Positions 22,373 through 54,997 of a DNA stretch of 54,997 nt are shown here, one piece after another. Location of the stretch: contig JAFWXW010000029.1 in the NCBI GenBank assembly GCA_017517845.1, positions 1-54,997 of the forward strand, written 5' to 3'. This DNA is from Paludibacteraceae bacterium. Lineage in GTDB: Bacteria; Bacteroidota; Bacteroidia; Bacteroidales; Paludibacteraceae. The notes below the pieces were generated by a model. That model was not told the origin of the DNA and made no database searches. It saw nothing but the letters and a program-made list of their open reading frames with translations. Every line of letters begins with the position of its first letter. The first letter of the stretch is position 1. A program made the position numbers and the translations under genes.

Positions 22373-22445
22373 TCCTAATTGCCTAACGGCGATTTTGCTC
22401 ACACTCGCAAAATTCCTAATTCCTAATTACTCATTCCTAATTAAA
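22373..22445 (-). repeat. Heptad-flanked hairpin element (type E) after the DUF3467 gene
   Basis: Read on the minus strand it starts 2 nt after the DUF3467 stop with TTAGGAAT-type heptads, then a 7-bp hairpin ATTTTGC/GCAAAAT (22392-22413, 8-nt loop), then a further AATTAGGAGTT unit. The layout of heptads around a hairpin matches the elements at 33998-34104 and 34828-34988, but the core differs. Confidence 0.7.
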
Positions 22446-27972: not shown

Positions 27973-28733
27973 AAATAGTTTCTTATAACGTAAACGGTAT
28001 TAGAGCTGCTATAGGCAAAGGATTAGTTTCTTGGCTTGCAGAAACAGATATAGATGTACTTTGTCTGCAAGAAACTAAAGCACAAGCAGACCAGATAGAT
28101 AGTAAGTCTTTTGAGGCTTTAGGTTATCACTGTTACTATACTTGTGCAGAAAAGAAGGGCTATAGTGGTGTGGCTATTTTTACAAAAAGGGAGCCAGATA
28201 ATGTAGTTTATGGAATGGGAAATCCTAAATATGACTGCGAAGGCAGAGTGATTAGAGCCGATTATGGTGATTTTACTCTTATCTGCGTTTACATTCCTTC
28301 TGGTACTTCTGGAGAAGAACGTCAAGCATTTAAAATGGAGTTTCTAGCAGATTTTAAAGTTTTTATAGACGAATTAAGACAGGAAAGACCTAATATTCTC
28401 GTTTGTGGAGACTATAATATAGCTCACACTCCTATAGATATAAATCACCCAGAAAGACAAAGGGGGGTGTCTGGTTTCCTTCCAGAAGAACGTGATTGGG
28501 TAACTGAGTTTTTGGGAAGTGGAATGATAGATACTTTTAGAGTTTTTGACCAACGTGCTGAGCAATATAGTTGGTGGAGTTATAGATTTAACTCTAGAAG
28601 TAGGAATGCTGGTTGGAGAATAGATTACCACATGGTATCTGAGCCACTAAGAGATAAGCTTACTAATGCAGATATTTGGCAACACGTGGTTCATTCAGAC
28701 CACTGTCCAATATTTGTAGAACTGACGCTCTAG
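27969..28733 (+). CDS. xth: Exodeoxyribonuclease III
   Basis: A 254-aa AP endonuclease / 3' exonuclease of the ExoIII family for base-excision repair. Glu35 in LQETKAQ, the GDYNIAHTPIDI segment and the terminal catalytic pair Asp244-His245 in SDHCPIF are present. It overlaps the mlaF-like gene by 4 nt. Its stop codon TAG (28731-28733) abuts a TTAGGAG heptad array with no gap. Confidence 0.95.
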   Translation: MKIVSYNVNGIRAAIGKGLVSWLAETDIDVLCLQETKAQADQIDSKSFEALGYHCYYTCAEKKGYSGVAIFTKREPDNVVYGMGNPKYDCEGRVIRADYGDFTLICVYIPSGTSGEERQAFKMEFLADFKVFIDELRQERPNILVCGDYNIAHTPIDINHPERQRGVSGFLPEERDWVTEFLGSGMIDTFRVFDQRAEQYSWWSYRFNSRSRNAGWRIDYHMVSEPLRDKLTNADIWQHVVHSDHCPIFVELTL

Positions 28734-28757
28734 TTAGGAGTTAGGAGTTAGGAGTTG
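28734..28757 (+). repeat. TTAGGAG heptad array after xth
   Basis: Three units of TTAGGAG follow the xth stop codon directly, then a decayed unit (TTGAGTG). The array ends ~20 nt before the next ATG and puts AGGAG cores upstream of it, too far away for an optimal ribosome-binding site. Confidence 0.85.
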
Positions 28758-33999: not shown

Positions 34000-34104
34000 T
34001 TAGGAATTTCTATGCAAACGAGTGGAGAACCAAGCTTGCTTGAGTTATCCCGAGTGCAGCCAGAAATCACGAGCGGAGCGAGTAATTTTAGGAGTTAGGA
34101 GTTT
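33998..34104. repeat. Composite hairpin repeat, copy A
   Basis: It begins at the stop codon of the glycoside hydrolase-like gene with TTAGGAATT, then the core GCAAACGAG...CCAAG-CTTG-CTTGAG...CCGAGTGCAGCCA, then ATCACGAGCGGAGCGAGTAA, and ends with two TTAGGAG heptads 3 nt before the birA GTG. The core 34024-34050 folds into an ~11-bp stem with loop CTTG. It is nearly identical over ~50 nt to copy C (54889-54997). Confidence 0.85.
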
Positions 34105-34847
34105 GTGAAGTTTAACATTATACATATCAACGAGTGTGATTCCACCAATGCTTATCTGCAGAGGGAAATTGTAGAAGCAAACCCTGTAGAAGGCACTGTA
34201 ATTTCCACTTATTTTCAAACAAAAGGACGCGGTCAATTAACTAACGTTTGGGAAGCAGAAAAGGGAAGAACATTCTTTGTAGTATATTACTACGCCCTAC
34301 CAACCTACCTATTAAGCAACAATTCCTTATATCACAAGCCATATCCGTGGCTATCGTAGATGTGCTTAATTCATATACCGATGGTTTCTGCATAAAATGG
34401 CCAAACGACATATACTACAAAGAAGACAAGATAGCAGGCATTCTTATAGAAAATAACCTCACTTCTGCAGGAATAAGTACATGTATTATAGGTTTAGGGC
34501 TGAATGTAAATCAAAAGACATTTAAAAGCGATGCTCCAAACCCCATATCACTGTTTAACATTATAGGCAAAGAAACTTCTGTACCAGAACTTTTACAAAG
34601 TATATTAGATAGATTTAATAAAGTCTATTCACTTGTATATTCCAACGTAGAACTTCTTAGAGAAAACTATTTCACCAATCTACTTTTCAATGGTCAGATG
34701 AGAGAATATGCAGATGAAAATGGCTTCTTCTACGGCAAGATTGTGGATGTGGAAAACGACGGACACCTGATAATTGAAGACATAGAGGGTGAAAGAAGAA
34801 GGTATGCGTTTAAGGAAGTGGTATTTCAGTTAGGAGTTAGGAGTTAG
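34105..34847 (+). pseudogene. birA: Biotin-protein ligase, frameshifted
   Basis: It encodes a short, single-domain BirA without the HTH domain. The first frame runs from GTG at 34105 (NECDSTNAYL, TKGRGQLTNVWEAEKG); the second carries the rest (NILCSILLRPTN, IKWPNDIYYKEDKIAGILIE). The shift is at about 34266-34271, where one A appears to be missing; adding it back gives a full protein of ~247 aa. BirA attaches biotin to carrier proteins such as OadA in this window. The last five codons and the stop (TTAGGAGTTAGGAGTTAG) come from a heptad array. Sequencing error, pseudogene or frameshifting cannot be told apart here. Confidence 0.88.
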
Positions 34848-34988
34848 GAGTTAGGAGTTAGGAGTTAGGAATTAGGAGTGAGGAATTTTTCAAGTAGCGA
34901 GAGCAATGATAAGCTTGCTTAAGCATTGCCGAGTCACGAAGAAAAATCACGAGCGTAGCGAGTAATGTTCACACCTGTTAGGAATTAG
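34828..34988. repeat. Heptad array and composite hairpin repeat, copy B
   Basis: About seven TTAGGAG-type heptads (34830-34885) begin inside the birA 3' end and supply its stop. Then come a core with the stem GCAATG...TAAG-CTTG-CTTA...CATTGC (34903-34929) and the tail ATCACGAGCGTAGCGAGTAA. A last unit GTTAGGAATTAG (34977-34988) abuts the comF stop. Loop and tail match copy A, while stem bases differ by compensatory changes. Confidence 0.85.
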
Positions 34989-37292: not shown

Positions 37293-37325
37293 AACTCCTA
37301 ACTCCTAATTCCTAACTCCTAACTT
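37293..37325 (-). repeat. Heptad array after oadB
   Basis: On the minus strand the oadB stop TAA is followed by AAG and then four units: TTAGGAG, TTAGGAA, TTAGGAG, TTAGGAG. Same orientation as the gene. Confidence 0.85.
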
Positions 37326-40907: not shown

Positions 40908-40913
40908 AAAAAG

Positions 40914-40961
40914 TGAGGAGTGAGGAGTGAGGAGTTAATTCCTCATTCCTAATTCCTAATT
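40914..40961. repeat. Head-to-head heptad array after sprA
   Basis: Three AGTGAGG-type units on the plus strand meet three inverted units (TTCCTCA, TTCCTAA, TTCCTAA) at a TTAA centre, so the array forms a long imperfect palindrome. It begins 8 nt after the sprA stop codon. Confidence 0.75.
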
Positions 40962-46900: not shown

Positions 46901-48211
46901 GATATAACCTAATGTTTTATTAAGTGTATAATCTGATGATTCTAGTTTTCTAGCCCCTTCTAGTTTGACAAAGTCTGTTCCAGACTCCATATTCCAATTA
47001 CGTAGATAGGTATCTACTTCATAAATATCTGGAAGTCCACCTGCAGACTGAACCACTTGTGAGAATAAAGTATTGGCACCATTAGATGGAACTCCTCCAT
47101 TAGATGTAAATGAAGAATTGTATATACGTTCTGGTTCACCTAAATCTGCAAAACCTACCACATTGGTGGTATTCTGATAGTTTATAGAATTTTTGTTGGT
47201 AACCCAAACTTCTATATTGGTAACAGACACTCCAGATGAAATATTAGGTGCATCTTGCATCCATTCGTCATAATGTTCACGGAAGAAATGAGAAAGGAAG
47301 TAGTGACGATTTTCATCATATTCATCTATAGAAATCTCAAAATCTGTGGTTTGAGCACCTGTAGTATTAATGGTTTGAGATTCTGATTCTTGTTGGGAAA
47401 TAACTGCACTTACACTGAGTTTCCCAAATTGTAAGTCTGTCTTGAAACCAAAAAGTGAGGTATTACCTGTAATCAAAGAACCTGTAAGAGGCATACTCAC
47501 ATTACCTGCCTCTAGTTTTTTTACAATATCATCTTCTTTGCCCTCATATTGGAGTTTCAGCATAGATTGGTCAAAGTCAAATGTAGCTTCTGTATTATAA
47601 TTTAAGCCAAAATTTAACTTATCACCCACCGAACCGCTCACATTAAGTTGTATTTTTTCATCAAAATCAAATGTTGGAGCAGGATTTTGAGAACGTTCGC
47701 TTAGTGCAGGGTCTTTTAGTTTCTTAAATTGTAGAGCAAAGATAAGTTCTGCAGAACCTTGTAATTTTAATTGAACACCACCAGGTCCAAAAACTTTGTC
47801 TGCAGGACCAATATCAAACTTCATCTCAGTTAATGAAATTTCATGCTTTTTACCTTTTTCTTCACTAACTTTTGTCTTATAATATTCTTGTTGAGACCTT
47901 TGGGCTTGATATTCCGCAAACTCATCACTAGTCAAATAGAATGGAGTTCCAAGGTCTTCTTCGCCTACCTTTGATTGGAAATAATACCTATCTGTATCTG
48001 GGTCATAGACGACTTCTGTCACCACATTATCTGGAATAGGAATAGACGCAGGAGCAGTATTATCCAGGTCATTATGATTTTCTACGTAGTTTTTAGAAAT
48101 AGGGAAATGAAGCTGAGAATCTTCCTTATTGGCAATACTATCCCCTGTCGCTTGAGCGAAAACCGCAAACGAAATAGAAAGCATTGCTAATATGTAGAAA
48201 AACTTCTTCAA
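40970..48211 (-). CDS. sprA: SprA, type IX secretion outer-membrane translocon
   Basis: A 2413-aa protein, the size expected for SprA/Sov (about 2400-2500 aa). Signal peptide ~1-19 (MLSISFAVFA). SprA forms the giant outer-membrane barrel through which T9SS cargo leaves the periplasm. Repeated long stretches of alternating polar/hydrophobic residues and motifs such as SVAFDAEFAHMIPGTARGAK and YVDDFESTTVGYD are typical. The start codon is TTG at 48211; no ATG lies upstream in frame before a stop, and a heptad array abuts the start. ruvA precedes it by 22 nt. The C1 protease in this window is a likely cargo. Confidence 0.95.
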   Translation of the reverse strand: MKKFFYILAMLSISFAVFAQATGDSIANKEDSQLHFPISKNYVENHNDLDNTAPASIPIPDNVVTEVVYDPDTDRYYFQSKVGEEDLGTPFYLTSDEFAEYQAQRSQQEYYKTKVSEEKGKKHEISLTEMKFDIGPADKVFGPGGVQLKLQGSAELIFALQFKKLKDPALSERSQNPAPTFDFDEKIQLNVSGSVGDKLNFGLNYNTEATFDFDQSMLKLQYEGKEDDIVKKLEAGNVSMPLTGSLITGNTSLFGFKTDLQFGKLSVSAVISQQESESQTINTTGAQTTDFEISIDEYDENRHYFLSHFFREHYDEWMQDAPNISSGVSVTNIEVWVTNKNSINYQNTTNVVGFADLGEPERIYNSSFTSNGGVPSNGANTLFSQVVQSAGGLPDIYEVDTYLRNWNMESGTDFVKLEGARKLESSDYTLNKTLGYISLKSALNNDEMLAVAYQYTYKGKVYTVGELSTASTETTKPLALKLLKSTDKSPLLPTWDLMMKNIYSLGAYQVQSNKFTLNILYKNDSTGIDLRYITEGPIAKKPLLWVMNLDHLDSQQNEKPNGDGMFDFIEGYTIISQNGKVIFPVVEPFGSYLAKKLENDPILVEKYVYQELYDSTLTTAQEFAEKNKFYLQGEYRASSGSEIRLNAMNVPKGSVKVTAGGVQLTENVDYTVDYMMGVVTIMNQDLIDLGTPISVTMESQSMFNMKRKSLIGTHLDYAFTDNFNVGGTVMYLSEKPLTEKVGYGDDPVANTVWGLNMSYRDQFQSVTDWLNKLPILNLKQASTVAFDAEFAHMIPGTARGAKGKVYVDDFESTTVGYDVRYASNWRLASTPSRFAESGLVNNIEYGKNRALLSWYYIDNMFNQTTSSTPSHIRKDKEQLSNHFVRQISENEIFPNRELVYGQSSYIQTLDLAFHPTERGPYNIYAENFDSDGKLTNPATKWGGVMRKLETTDFETNNIEYLEFWVMDPFVYNDGTMTGGDLYFNFGDISEDILKDGRKFYENGLPVGIEENSVVNTVWGKVPTKQSVVYAFDATEDARKAQDTGLNGLSTEEEFNNETYKTFLEKLKAKLTPDALNRMLADKFSPLNDPAGDNFHHYRGTDYDNAEVGVLERYRYYNGTEGNSQTTSESESYTTASSNKPDYEDINIDNTLSDSEKYFEYKVSLRPEDMNVGQNYITDMVTSSVTLKNGETGTVKWYQFKIPLRDADNYTSYGSIRSFKSIRFMRMYLTGFSHDVNLRFASMELVKGEWRTYQKEIEKGYHNEATIIETSSVNIEENADKQPVNYVLPPGVSREIDPSQQQVRQENEQSMVLRVHNLHPKDSRAVYKKFGGYDMRQYGKLEMFVHAEALPDDDTNLRDRDLKLFIRIGSDYQNNYYEYEVPLTLTPEGIYSNNTTTDRRAVWPEDNKIELPLELLTNLKKARNEEKNRNHSSVSNLTEYSTLDPANPNNRVTIIGNPSLGEVEVFMIGIRNASREVKSAEVWVNELLLTDFDEQGGVAARASLDIALSDFITLNAAGRIETIGYGGIEQKVQERRQDDYYQYNVNAGIDLGKLLPEKANTVIPVRYSLSHEIINPKYNPLDKDILLKDALETTANKQQRDSILNVAQDMTMTQSLSVPGIRVGITSKEGPRPWDPANFTIGGSYSQTESRDPNTTREVEQYSNAYGQYEFSWSPEPVEPFAKIKSIQNNKHMRWLTDFGFYYAPKLISFKTNFTRNYYEQVVRNFENPEQDIDPTFAKDFMWSNEFDFAWDLTKNLKLTLTTSNNSLITENEGGVNSELYPDEYEMWKDSVWNSLSHLGSPQDYNQRFTASWNIPFNKILALNWIQGNIKYDGNYQWLSGTDVIANTAISKGTIQADGKFNFESLYNKSSYLKDVNKKYGSTNAPKPKKKKEFTQTLKLQAGDTVVVRHRLNDKKVRIKASSNGQSYKLKHKVVDANSIKVIATKGAEVELTVISGGPQPASMTFVDVLARIAMLVRNVSFNYAQTDGTTLPGYLPSVQGLGMSEFNGKTAPTFAFVMGIQEDDILDKALSSGWLLTSDAVYNPAQFVHTETFKATALVEPFPGIKINVQADRQYVNNRSVQFSGGSNLTNLDGSLSMSYVAIGTAFTSVRGGVFTDELFNNFLNYRNTIKKRLENQYGPNTGYALNSDDVLVPAFLAAYAGRDVNKVDTKSVPKFWSFLPNWQVTITALNRIPWVKEHFRSINITHGYTCKYQIGSFTSDQTFTSVEGDDFGYVEDVLSDGFLPSSRYSLGNLTLNEQFSPLVGLDMNLKNSLTFKAEWRRGRNMGLNLASNQIVESSNNEYVVGIGYKFSDLKFNMKTAKSSKQVKNDLTLRADFSLKDAKTLVRKIELNESQATAGDLVTTFKFAANYVFSERINFSLFYDLQMRTPVVSTSYPTLNSEVGVSVKVLLTR

Positions 48212-48236
48212 GTTAGGAGTTAGGAGTTAGGAGTTA
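48211..48236 (-). repeat. Inverted heptad array between ruvA and sprA
   Basis: On the minus strand the ruvA stop TAA is itself the first TAACTCC unit of three units; the array runs up to the sprA TTG start. The orientation is opposite to that of the genes. It fills the whole spacer. Confidence 0.85.
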
Positions 48237-53114: not shown

Positions 53115-54536
53115 TTATTTAAACAAATCATCAAGTTTCACCTCAGACTGAATTGTATTCCAATAAGCATTGTGCCTCACTCCAAAAGAGGTTACAAAGG
53201 TTATATGCACAGATTTTTTAGTTTTAGTCTGCTCCTTAAAAATCTCTCTTCTCTCACGTAGCCATGCATCATAATCTTGTGTTATTACATATTCACTATT
53301 AGAATATTTCATCTCACACAAGTTTATTATACCATCCTTTCTATCTATTACCAAGTCTATCTGAACTCCTTTATTTTCTCCTTCCGCTACTCTTTGATAA
53401 ACAGAACACTCCGTTGAAACACCACTTATACCTAAAGCCGTTTTTATCTGCGGAATATGCCACAAACACAATCTTTCAAAGGCAAGACCCGCCCAGTTAT
53501 GATGAATAGGAGAATCTACATTGTAAGTCCAAAATCTATCCTCGTGCGATTTATTTTCTTGCACAAACTTCAGATAAAACAATGTGAAATTGTCTATTAA
53601 TCGATAAGTTAACTCATTTCTACGTTTGCCAAAATTATTGTATGATTTTATAAAACCACTCTGCTCTAATTCTATCAGCATACGTTTAAATACCGTATTA
53701 TTAGATAGTTTTGTCGCTTTAAGAATTTCTTCCCTACTCATTCCAGATTTTTTACTTCCCAAAGCCTTAATAATAGCTATATAATTTTCTGGGCGTTTGA
53801 AAATAGAAGCATAAAGTGCCTCAAATTCATTCTTAAATGGTGCATTATCATAGAAAAACAACCTATCTATATTTTGCGACAGACTCTCACCCTTTCGTAG
53901 AAAACTCCAATAATATGGCACTCCCCCCATAATCATATAAGCCTCAGCAATATCTTTCCTAGAAAATTCAATATTAGAGGCCTTTAAATACTCCTCACAT
54001 ACGCCAAGAGAAAATGGTAATAATTTTATCTGTTCTGTAACACGATTGTATAATCCACCCGTATTATTAATAATATTGTCCATTACCCACGACGTAGAAC
54101 TACAACATGTAATTAACACTATGTCTTCTCTAGCACTAGCAAAACTATTCCAAAAATATTCCAACGCACTTAAAAAGTCGCTTTGCTTAGTATCCAACCA
54201 AGAAAGTTCGTCAAGGAATATCACTTTTTTATTTTTGCTTTGTGTTTTATCTATCAACACAGACAACAAATTGAATGCTTCAAACCAATCATTAGGTTTC
54301 TTATTATCCTTGTCCAATCCGTATGTTAACAAAGAATTATAAAACTGTTTCAACTGAACAGATTTACCCACCTTCGCTACACCTGTATGGAAGAAAGTAA
54401 AATAAGGTTGTAGCGTCTGTCTTATCAAATAAGTTTTCCCCACACGCCTACGACCATAAACCACACAAAATTGACTTTCGGTTTTTTCCAACAAACCTAA
54501 CAATATGGATTGCTCATTATCTCTACCTATTAACAT
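53115..54536 (-). CDS. AAA ATPase with C-terminal DUF234 nuclease-like domain
   Basis: A 473-aa protein of the archaeal-type ATPase group. Walker A GRRRVGKT at 28-35, Walker B with KKVIFLDELSWLD near 105-117. A winged-helix region is around 285-325 (SREEILKATKLSNNTVFKRM). The C-terminal DUF234 domain has Asp394 and the ExK pair Glu408/Lys410 (LCEMKYS), consistent with a PD-(D/E)xK nuclease fold. Function is unknown; similar genes are accessory and some occur near mobile or defence loci. It has its own promoter and an unusual inverted-repeat region upstream. Confidence 0.85.
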   Translation of the reverse strand: MLIGRDNEQSILLGLLEKTESQFCVVYGRRRVGKTYLIRQTLQPYFTFFHTGVAKVGKSVQLKQFYNSLLTYGLDKDNKKPNDWFEAFNLLSVLIDKTQSKNKKVIFLDELSWLDTKQSDFLSALEYFWNSFASAREDIVLITCCSSTSWVMDNIINNTGGLYNRVTEQIKLLPFSLGVCEEYLKASNIEFSRKDIAEAYMIMGGVPYYWSFLRKGESLSQNIDRLFFYDNAPFKNEFEALYASIFKRPENYIAIIKALGSKKSGMSREEILKATKLSNNTVFKRMLIELEQSGFIKSYNNFGKRRNELTYRLIDNFTLFYLKFVQENKSHEDRFWTYNVDSPIHHNWAGLAFERLCLWHIPQIKTALGISGVSTECSVYQRVAEGENKGVQIDLVIDRKDGIINLCEMKYSNSEYVITQDYDAWLRERREIFKEQTKTKKSVHITFVTSFGVRHNAYWNTIQSEVKLDDLFK

Positions 54537-54584: not shown

Positions 54585-54596
54585 TATTATTAAGGC

Positions 54597-54705
54597 AAAA
54601 GTGTGAAAACCTACCCATTTTTGAGGAGCATTTCACACTTTTGGAGCGATTTTACAAGGAAAAGTGTGAAAATGTAGCAATTTTCAGGTAGCATTTCACA
54701 CTTTT
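54597..54705. repeat. Two tandem inverted repeats AAAAGTGTGAAA / TTTCACACTTTT
   Basis: Unit 1 (54597-54642) and unit 2 (54660-54705) each have AAAAGTGTGAAA at one end and TTTCACACTTTT at the other, separated by ~21-22 nt that are partly alike (ending AGGAGCA or AGGTAGCA). They lie just upstream of the ATPase promoter, so four GTGTGAAA half-sites are available for a regulator. Confidence 0.8.
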
Positions 54706-54747
54706 GAGAATGTTCAATATATTTTGGAAATACCTGTTTTTTATTTT

Positions 54748-54791
54748 TAGCGTTATTTGTTAATTAATTTAACATTTAACGCTATTTTTTT
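54748..54791 (+). terminator. Plus-strand terminator-like hairpin without an upstream gene
   Basis: Outer stem TAGCGTTA / TAACGCTA (54748-54755 with 54777-54784), 2x2 T-T mismatch, inner stem TGTTAA/TTAACA, loop TTAAT, then seven T (54785-54791). No plus-strand coding gene precedes it, so it could end a short RNA that starts downstream of 54540. In the stretch 54537-54997 I see no gene. Confidence 0.55.
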
Positions 54792-54850
54792 GTCCATTTT
54801 CTTTTAACATTTTCTCCTTTTTTATCCCCTATTTTCCACCCAATTTTTTG

Positions 54851-54892
54851 TCCAAATCAATCGGTCGTTTGATTGGAACAACTTGTTCCAAT
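54851..54892. promoter_or_regulatory. Two overlapping, mutually exclusive hairpins
   Basis: ATTGGAACAA-C-TTGTTCCAAT (54872-54892) is a 10-bp palindrome. Its left arm overlaps the right arm of a second hairpin, TCCAA(A)TCAA with TTGATTGGA (54851-54877). Only one can form at a time, as in attenuators. Confidence 0.5.
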
Positions 54893-54997
54893 TAGGAATT
54901 AGGAGTTAGGAATTCTTGTGCAAACGAGAGGAGAACCAAGCTTGCTTGAGTTATCCCGAGTGCAGCCAAGAATCATGAGGTGCGAAGCACTGAATAA
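54889..54997. repeat. Composite hairpin repeat, copy C (cut by window end)
   Basis: Heptads (TTAGGAA, TTAGGAG, TTAGGAA) followed by the same core as copy A: GCAAACGAG, then GGAGAACC-AAG-CTTG-CTTGAG (stem 54930-54956), then CCGAGTGCAGCCA. After the core it differs from A, ending with a small GTGC-GAA-GCAC hairpin. It runs to the end of the window. Confidence 0.85.

Follow-up and report, generated by a model that had tools for sequence, protein, structure and literature searches.

The window (the whole stretch of 54,997 nucleotides analysed here) belongs to a Paludibacteraceae genome, G000, a 1.68 Mb draft that is 81% complete, and contains three copies (A, B and C) of a short hairpin. What kind of element is this repeat, and how did it become dispersed? 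The initial annotation had described a stem with compensatory base changes, and its description holds on re-reading the sequence. AAG-CTTG-CTT with a bulged A is present in A and B, the four compensated stem pairs between them are correct, the 27 nt of the inner hairpin of C are identical to those of A, and the tail ATCACGAGCGnAGCGAGTAA is conserved between A and B. Two more stem positions, absent from that annotation, also differ: one is unpaired in A (G.A) and paired in B (A-T), the other is a C-G pair in A and an unpaired A.G in B. The tail of C (CATGAGGTGCGAAGCACTGAATAA) differs from that of A and B. The three copies comprise the following features:

34005-34068, plus strand: body of the copy A hairpin unit (match to model R1, 92.2 bits)
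34006-34012, plus strand: left arm (T7, ATTTCTA) of the outer 7-nt stem of copy A, 6 of 7 positions pairing (sequence, re-pairing set)
34019-34022, plus strand: CGAG, which would form the left half of a tandem G.A block with the CGAG at 34051-34054 (GAG does not vary in 79 aligned cores; pairing putative)
34024-34050, plus strand: inner hairpin of copy A, AAG-CTTG-CTT with bulged A (sequence, covariation in 14 copies)
34051-34054, plus strand: CGAG, right half of the proposed block (CCGAG does not vary in the 79 aligned cores, mostly retrieved with a search pattern that itself demanded CCGAG)
34061-34067, plus strand: right arm (T7', CAGAAAT) of the outer stem of copy A (sequence, re-pairing set)
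34068-34085, plus strand: tail of copy A, CACGAGCGGAGCGAGTAA, which can fold with a GNA triloop (sequence)
34884-34948, plus strand: body of the copy B hairpin unit (match to model R1, 52.7 bits)
34903-34929, plus strand: inner hairpin of copy B (sequence)
34948-34965, plus strand: tail of copy B, CACGAGCGTAGCGAGTAA (sequence)
54911-54974, plus strand: body of the copy C hairpin unit, at the contig end (match to model R1, 95.2 bits)
54930-54956, plus strand: inner hairpin of copy C, identical to that of A (sequence)
54974-54997, plus strand: differing tail of copy C, CATGAGGTGCGAAGCACTGAATAA, reaching the contig end (sequence)

A stretch of about 230-250 bp that includes copy C (window 54750-54997) recurs with 90-97% identity near the ends or starts of contigs C9, C32 and C7; the window thus ends at a repeat. 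This terminal repeat is adjoined by an ATPase gene (53115-54536, PF01637), before which a 58-nt inverted-repeat unit, AAAAGTGTGAAAA...TTTCACACTTTT, is present in two tandem copies that are 78% alike (54586-54706). Between copies A and B, a biotin-ligase-like gene (34105-34847) looks split over two frames, with its N-terminal part in the frame of 34105 (by eye) and the rest in the ORF 34248-34847 (BPL_LplA_LipB), reflecting either a frameshift or an assembly error.

A hairpin family with a constrained fold

A 90-nt query from copy A gave 41 matches in its own genome at E<=10, many of the weaker ones spanning the tail alone, and 37 at E<=0.001. The covariance model R1, built from 14 copies of this genome, retrieved 70 matches in it at E<=0.01, possibly a lower bound since 150 of 758 first-look candidates were scored. 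The same model found matches in 14 of the 16 genomes of the genus, ranging from 0 to 98 per genome; these counts are rough, since 150 candidates were scored in each genome, out of as many as 1078 at first look, and the model derives from G000 copies. The presence of further copies, set beforehand as a test of the element, was thus confirmed both in its own genome and in relatives. A core pattern, GAGAGCA-N5-AAGYTTRCTT-N5,6-TGCCGAG, occurs in at least 117 genome-contig stretches; the titles of the 117 listed ones name Bacteroidetes, mostly Bacteroidales, with the exception of two contigs of one 'uncultured bacterium' bin.

The layout that recurs in 167 distinct copies (143 loci) is an outer stem, a connector, CGAG, the inner hairpin, CGAG, a connector and the outer stem again, with mainly three connector registers, (7,6), (8,5) and (8,7). 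Three pairings are thus nested: a copy-specific outer stem, a conserved core flanked by CGAG, and the inner AAG-YTTR-CTT hairpin. Judging from their sequence, the two CGAG motifs could form tandem G.A pairs opposite one another. Of 125 copies chosen for having a stem in register, 80 have an outer stem of exactly 7 uninterrupted Watson-Crick pairs. A similar choice gave 73 distinct arm pairs, 40 of them perfectly complementary (0.8 on average in shuffles, at most 4). At L111, L188 and L366 the outer arm looks copied from the target, but the same outer arms recur at different sites in families within one genome. A second small hairpin is present in the tail of part of the copies. A crude finder applied to 125 copies gave a score of at least 3 in 44% (30% in shuffles) and of at least 4 in 24% (9% in shuffles), and 22 of 55 called tail loops are GNA triloops. 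As a general feature, the tail hairpin is weak by this finder and was rejected; the weakness may come partly from the finder ignoring tandem G.A pairs. Another repeat, GTCATNNTGAGCG-AGCGAANNATCT, was noticed in loci of G010-G015 (L038, L041, L222, L302), where it encloses some hairpins.

In the 14 copies, both sides changed at 11 of 21 pairs, giving 37 cells compared with 10.7 +/- 2.4 after shuffling (reached in 0 of 500 shuffles), and 92.4% of cells are paired (shuffled mean 79.5); structures slid along the same alignment gave 1 to 5 both-side-changed cells. The copies share descent, so these figures are not to be read as probabilities. Stronger evidence comes from re-pairing arms between copies: an outer-stem score of at least 6 is reached by 52% of the 167 distinct copies and by 2.4% of the re-paired ones. 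The stem changes are therefore compensatory beyond shuffles and beyond the re-pairing control. Together with the extra copies and the lack of any Rfam match at gathering scores in the window, this covariation bears out the proposal of a dispersed and structurally constrained element.

The mismatches in the stems bear on whether this fold is one of DNA or of RNA. The 11 inner pairs of 90 distinct cores comprise 943 Watson-Crick, 14 G.T, 11 A.C and 22 other combinations. In the outer stem there are 663 Watson-Crick, 9 G.T, 8 A.C and 34 others. The twelfth inner position, usually G.A, leans towards RNA (9 G.T, no A.C) and brings the inner stem to 23 G.T versus 11 A.C. Over all positions, 32 G.T stand against 19 A.C among more than 1600 Watson-Crick cells, or 23 against 19 with the twelfth position omitted. 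In an RNA fold, G.U should be tolerated far more readily than A.C. With G.T hardly above A.C in the stems, a DNA-level fold is favoured, the near-parity being seen as templating or selection at the DNA level, and an RNA reading is unlikely. CTTG and GNA loops are favourable in DNA. A permissive Rfam scan of eight loci gave sub-threshold matches to unrelated families only; a known RNA family was rejected for the window and these eight loci by the lack of a match at threshold. The initial annotation had proposed selection on the fold or replication through it. Its claim that the fold is constrained stands, whereas selection is only one of two possibilities: most pair changes replace one Watson-Crick pair with a different one, so that templated copying within DNA fits at least as well.

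Heptamer arrays and mobility of the hairpin

The window contains eight tandem 7-mer rows of the TTAGGAG kind, located as follows (tandem-repeat rows):

22411-22442, minus strand: solo (AATTCCT)n array, in opposite orientation
28732-28756, plus strand: solo (AGTTAGG)n array
34828-34884, plus strand: (AGTTAGG)n array directly left of copy B (8.1 copies, 94% matches)
37293-37324, minus strand: solo (AACTCCT)n array, in opposite orientation
40912-40961, strand-neutral: (AGTGAGG)n then (AATTCCT)n, inverted head to head, with no gene or spacer between
48211-48236, plus strand: solo (AGTTAGG)n array
54890-54914, plus strand: (AATTAGG)n array at copy C

Searching G000 with a 21-nt array pattern gave 184 overlapping matches, and none with the reversed pattern as control; across the genus, the pattern was found in only 4 of the 16 genomes, so the TTAGGAG-type 7-mer is lineage-specific; in other species, hairpins lie beside other 7-mers (by reading). 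An array is present at the left flank of 37 of 205 hairpins and in 66 of 1589 intergenic control windows, and 34 of these 37 flanking arrays have period 7. At the other 168 hairpins the left flank lacks a strict array, which counts against the reading that we favour below. Array length varies between otherwise similar repeats (L009 versus L011). The initial annotation had drawn no connection between the hairpin and the TTAGGAG arrays near it.

Several comparisons of orthologous sites, in all of which gain and loss of the hairpin are unpolarised, point to mobility. At an orthologous four-helix-bundle locus in G003 and G004, a hairpin unit of about 85 nt lies between two 7-mers in G004 alone. 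The comparison of 13 G015 hairpin loci with G014 covered only part of the latter, up to 20 kb from each of 60 contigs. Six loci have flanks that are orthologous over 500 bp or more on one or both sides, and no hairpin core was found in the G014 stretches orthologous to these six. The junctions are clean at two of them, where G014 has a bare TCAACTG array at one and neither array nor hairpin at the other; the absence of both from G014 at L223 counts against our favoured reading. The G014 sequence differs at two of the other four loci, and a single flank aligned at two. The remaining seven G015 loci match G014 through the repeat itself only, or not at all.

Copies also lie in frame within long ORFs whose names were assigned by reading the sequence, for instance FtsK-like (L004, in G000), ABC-F-like (L060), RecF-like (L144) and a solute-binding protein (L190). 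Direct repeats of at least 7 nt, not fixed in length, flank 35% of 83 non-array copies and 5.4% of mis-paired controls, in a set that includes short arrays or partial tandem copies missed by the filter (e.g., L004, L021, L145, L165). Taken together, filled and empty orthologous sites, in-frame copies and flanking direct repeats indicate that the hairpin is mobile. Most copies (163 of 207) lie outside ORFs, as judged with a rough mask spanning 86% of the DNA. Copies directly 5' of start codons were seen at L057 (rpmH-like) and L043 (arginine-decarboxylase-like; both names by reading), with the tail hairpin ending at the ATG.

PF05635 genes between inverted heptamer arrays

One G015 insertion consists of a PF05635 gene between inverted arrays. 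Proteins of this family, for which we use the label 'four-helix bundle' from plasmid-record annotation and from the accessible part of PMC4990558, have 18 matches in the genus, 17 of which pass the curated cut-off. The 18 are spread over 10 of the 16 genomes, with two in G000. Of 148 genomes searched in the phylum as a whole, 116 have the family. The sole PDB match of the G000 protein at E<=0.01 is 2rld (E 4.5e-34), deposited as an uncharacterized protein.

We scored the complementarity between the 300 nt before and the 300 nt after each gene. In the genus, 15 of 18 PF05635 loci score above the 95th percentile (27) of 73 control ORFs, whose maximum is 46, and 13 of 18 remain above the 95th percentile (36) of a harsher control with mis-paired flanks. 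Across the phylum, 30 loci were fetched, corresponding to the best-scoring PF05635 matches; 19 exceed the 95th percentile of mis-paired flanks, and 12 exceed the 99th, while control ORFs from these loci (n = 49) reach 37 at most, with a 95th percentile of 25.6. Three of the 18 genus loci and 11 of the 30 phylum loci are not above the 95% control level. Twelve plasmid loci, chosen for diversity among at least 25 records, come from Cyanobacteria (8), Bacteroidota, Chloroflexota, Spirochaetota and Bacillota. All 12 score between 35 and 85, above the mis-paired 95th percentile (34), and seven are above the 99th (48). On three of these plasmids, where 46, 28 and 44 genes were ranked, the four-helix-bundle gene comes first, and the 115 other CDS score at most 25. 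Period 7 is the commonest period in each set, being found in arms scoring at least 28 at 9 of 15 genus, 13 of 18 phylum and 12 of 12 plasmid loci.

The neighbours of these genes are protein-coding in the 12 annotated plasmid loci, and the genus flanks read as protein genes; judged by these neighbours, the loci do not lie in a 23S rRNA gene. By reading, an orthologous PF05635 cassette is in opposite orientations in G010 and G011. In three cyanobacterial plasmids and one Chlorohelix plasmid (L388, L390, L392, L393), a helicase or DUF1156 gene precedes the four-helix-bundle gene, and the gene on its other side encodes a hypothetical protein, an N-6 DNA methylase or Swt1/HEPN, as in defence-like operons. 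Virus contigs (IMG/VR) gave 19 stretches, several of them near-identical. The bracketing of PF05635 genes by inverted 7-mer arrays across phyla is more surprising than the hairpin itself. In the literature covered (titles and the beginnings of abstracts, with most subscription journals outside the coverage), we found neither a link between PF05635 or four-helix-bundle genes and inverted heptamer arrays nor a report of the hairpin.

The ends of the hairpin differ from the 7-mer arrays that end PF05635 loci, though some hairpins sit in such arrays. By reading, and as a plain count, hairpins lie within the arrays of only 4 of the 18 genus cassettes (L317, L321, L324, L327), which counts against the reading favoured below. 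In 16 genomes, the numbers of hairpin and PF05635 matches correlate (Spearman 0.59, p 0.016), and genomes with PF05635 have more hairpins than those without (one-sided Mann-Whitney p 0.008), both statistics ignoring ancestry. Exceptions among these draft genomes are G002, with three PF05635 matches (one below the cut-off) and one hairpin match, and G007, G012 and G014, with 38, 15 and 8 hairpin matches, respectively, and no PF05635 match. In the window, the head-to-head pair at 40912-40961 looks like the two ends of a four-helix-bundle element that lacks its gene.

Possible mode of spread and related systems

The reading that we tentatively favour, though it is about as likely to be wrong as right, makes the hairpin a small mobile DNA element of about 65-90 nt, non-autonomous and working as a folded strand in or near the 7-mer terminal arrays of four-helix-bundle elements. 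The arrays would be the terminal repeats of a mobile four-helix-bundle element, together with its solo remnants, and the hairpin a passenger or parasite that inserts into them and could reach other sites too. DNA that becomes single-stranded at replication forks may fold and then be copied into a new place. The 7-nt arms would stay complementary because one is copied from the other by fold-back templating, rather than by slow step-wise selection. The four-helix-bundle protein would be the likeliest nucleic-acid-binding helper, a role suggested by the architecture of the loci and a modest correlation (rho 0.59).

Passive spread is an alternative that we regard as possible but doubtful. It requires no dedicated enzyme: the hairpin would be carried by recombination or fork template switching between near-identical 7-mer arrays, its arms being kept by quasipalindrome correction. 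The numerous arrays of G000 would serve as homology arms, and the enrichment of hairpins at arrays, the closeness of G.T to A.C and the variable array length all fit; copies with no detected array nevertheless have flanking direct repeats, in-frame copies occur in genes with no obvious array (L190), and the sharp 7-bp limit of the outer stem is unexpected under an open-ended correction. The position of most copies outside ORFs, with some directly before start codons (L057, L043), and the one inner position with G.T and no A.C would suit a cis-regulatory RNA structure, such as a leader, a terminator or a processing site, that has multiplied in these genomes. With no Rfam family at threshold in the window and eight loci, a small G.U preference at the other positions and copies within coding frames too, we consider this improbable. 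We think as little of selection for a folded DNA bound by a protein (at a nucleoid or replication site) with neutral dispersal: the core is conserved beyond the needs of pairing, though the search pattern imposed much of that conservation, and the uneven match number in related genomes (0 to 98) and the site polymorphism look like mobile DNA.

A REP element moved by a RAYT/Y1 (IS200/IS605-like) transposase is very improbable. The initial annotation had suggested looking for a linked RAYT-type transposase. In the genus, PF01797 (Y1_Tnp) was found in 2 of 16 genomes, G000 and G001, with one gene each; it is missing from the other 14, including both genomes with 98 hairpin matches and all five rated at least 90% complete and at most 5% contaminated (the drafts being 78-100% complete overall). 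RAYT/Y1 was accordingly rejected as a general driver. The sole Y1 gene of G000 (L031:1417-1851, on G000:C4) does lie 0.7 kb from an element copy, and the bulged hairpins resemble REPs in general form. The motifs of its protein (DHVH, WQ, YIKKQKEHH), relatives of which are up to 54% identical in other genera of the family, are close to the signature of TnpA subclass 1.2, for which the authors, in the accessible part of their paper, give no associated structures (Quentin et al., PMC6006769); that part also mentions atypical structures near Bacteroidetes subclass 2.6 genes. Among 207 copies, 9 have GTAG no further than 8 nt 5' of the core, and the other 198 lack it there; copy B has it by eye, and GTGG was found in none. 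Like REP/RAYT elements, as far as the accessible parts of PMC3733652 and PMC6006769 describe them (see also PMC2817692), the hairpins are dispersed, mostly intergenic and imperfect; unlike them, they have no consistent GTAG tag or Y1 partner and are enriched at 7-mer arrays. Other hairpin-like stretches, GCAGGTGTT...AGCGTAGCG...AACGCCTG, surround the G000 Y1 gene (L031:700-1100 and 1950-2020), together with a long palindrome, GTGGGCGGTGC...GCACCGCCCAC; some of these L031 stretches have GC-GNA-GC tips. Copying with a reverse transcriptase as helper is likewise not supported, PF00078 being found in 5 of 16 genus genomes and in neither G000 nor G003.

Among known systems, the hairpin is closest in kind to the palindromic elements of Rickettsia (RPE), with which we compared it by layout. 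Short palindromes of this type, in Rickettsia and Wolbachia, are located between genes and in frame inside protein genes, and we know of no transposase for them. The hairpin is likewise palindromic and found both in intergenic regions and in frame in protein genes; it differs by its copy-specific 7-nt outer stem, an often present second hairpin in the tail, its 7-mer arrays and its Bacteroidales hosts. MITEs and PATEs (palindrome-associated, derived from IS200/IS605) are small, non-autonomous, palindromic and mobile, as is the hairpin, whereas no matching full-length insertion sequence was identified here among the mobility genes searched in the genus (Y1 and reverse transcriptase families).

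Tandem heptamer repeats located between genes are known in Cyanobacteria as STRR. Tandem 7-mers between genes, including TAACTGA direct repeats, have been described in Cyanobacteria, Beggiatoaceae and some Bacteroidetes (PMC4679880); no bracketed gene is named in the accessible part of that report, whereas the arrays described here bracket PF05635. The same protein family (S23p, PF05635) is encoded by intervening sequences (IVS) of 23S rRNA genes. According to the accessible part of PMC4990558, the terminal inverted repeats of the Coxiella burnetii IVS form a 28-bp stem, and tandem heptameric GACAGAT repeats, whose number differs between strains, lie just upstream of the S23p ORF; these features fit the array pattern, though the accessible part draws no general rule from them. 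Unlike the IVS, our loci lie between protein genes within inverted 7-mer arrays, and solo arrays and hairpins are dispersed genome-wide.

More speculatively, and more likely wrong than right, PF05635 genes and their inverted 7-mer arrays could constitute an unrecognised cross-phylum mobile element without known transposase, integrase or reverse transcriptase. The dispersed heptamers of Bacteroidota, perhaps also the cyanobacterial STRR, would be its solo ends, and the hairpin either a second-order parasite or a working end structure, copied as a folded single strand with its 7-nt arms re-templated.

On a modest reading, the hairpin is a widespread dispersed family of Bacteroidales, with no Rfam match in the scanned sequence (window and eight loci). 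It also provides a compact reporter: copy-specific 7-bp stems, in-frame copies and filled or empty sites let mobility be measured between strains. If the wider proposal is true, gut Bacteroidales would have a way of adding short peptides to proteins and remodelling gene boundaries that needs no classical transposase, and two old puzzles, the origin of heptamer repeats and the function of four-helix-bundle/IVP genes, would merge into one testable system.
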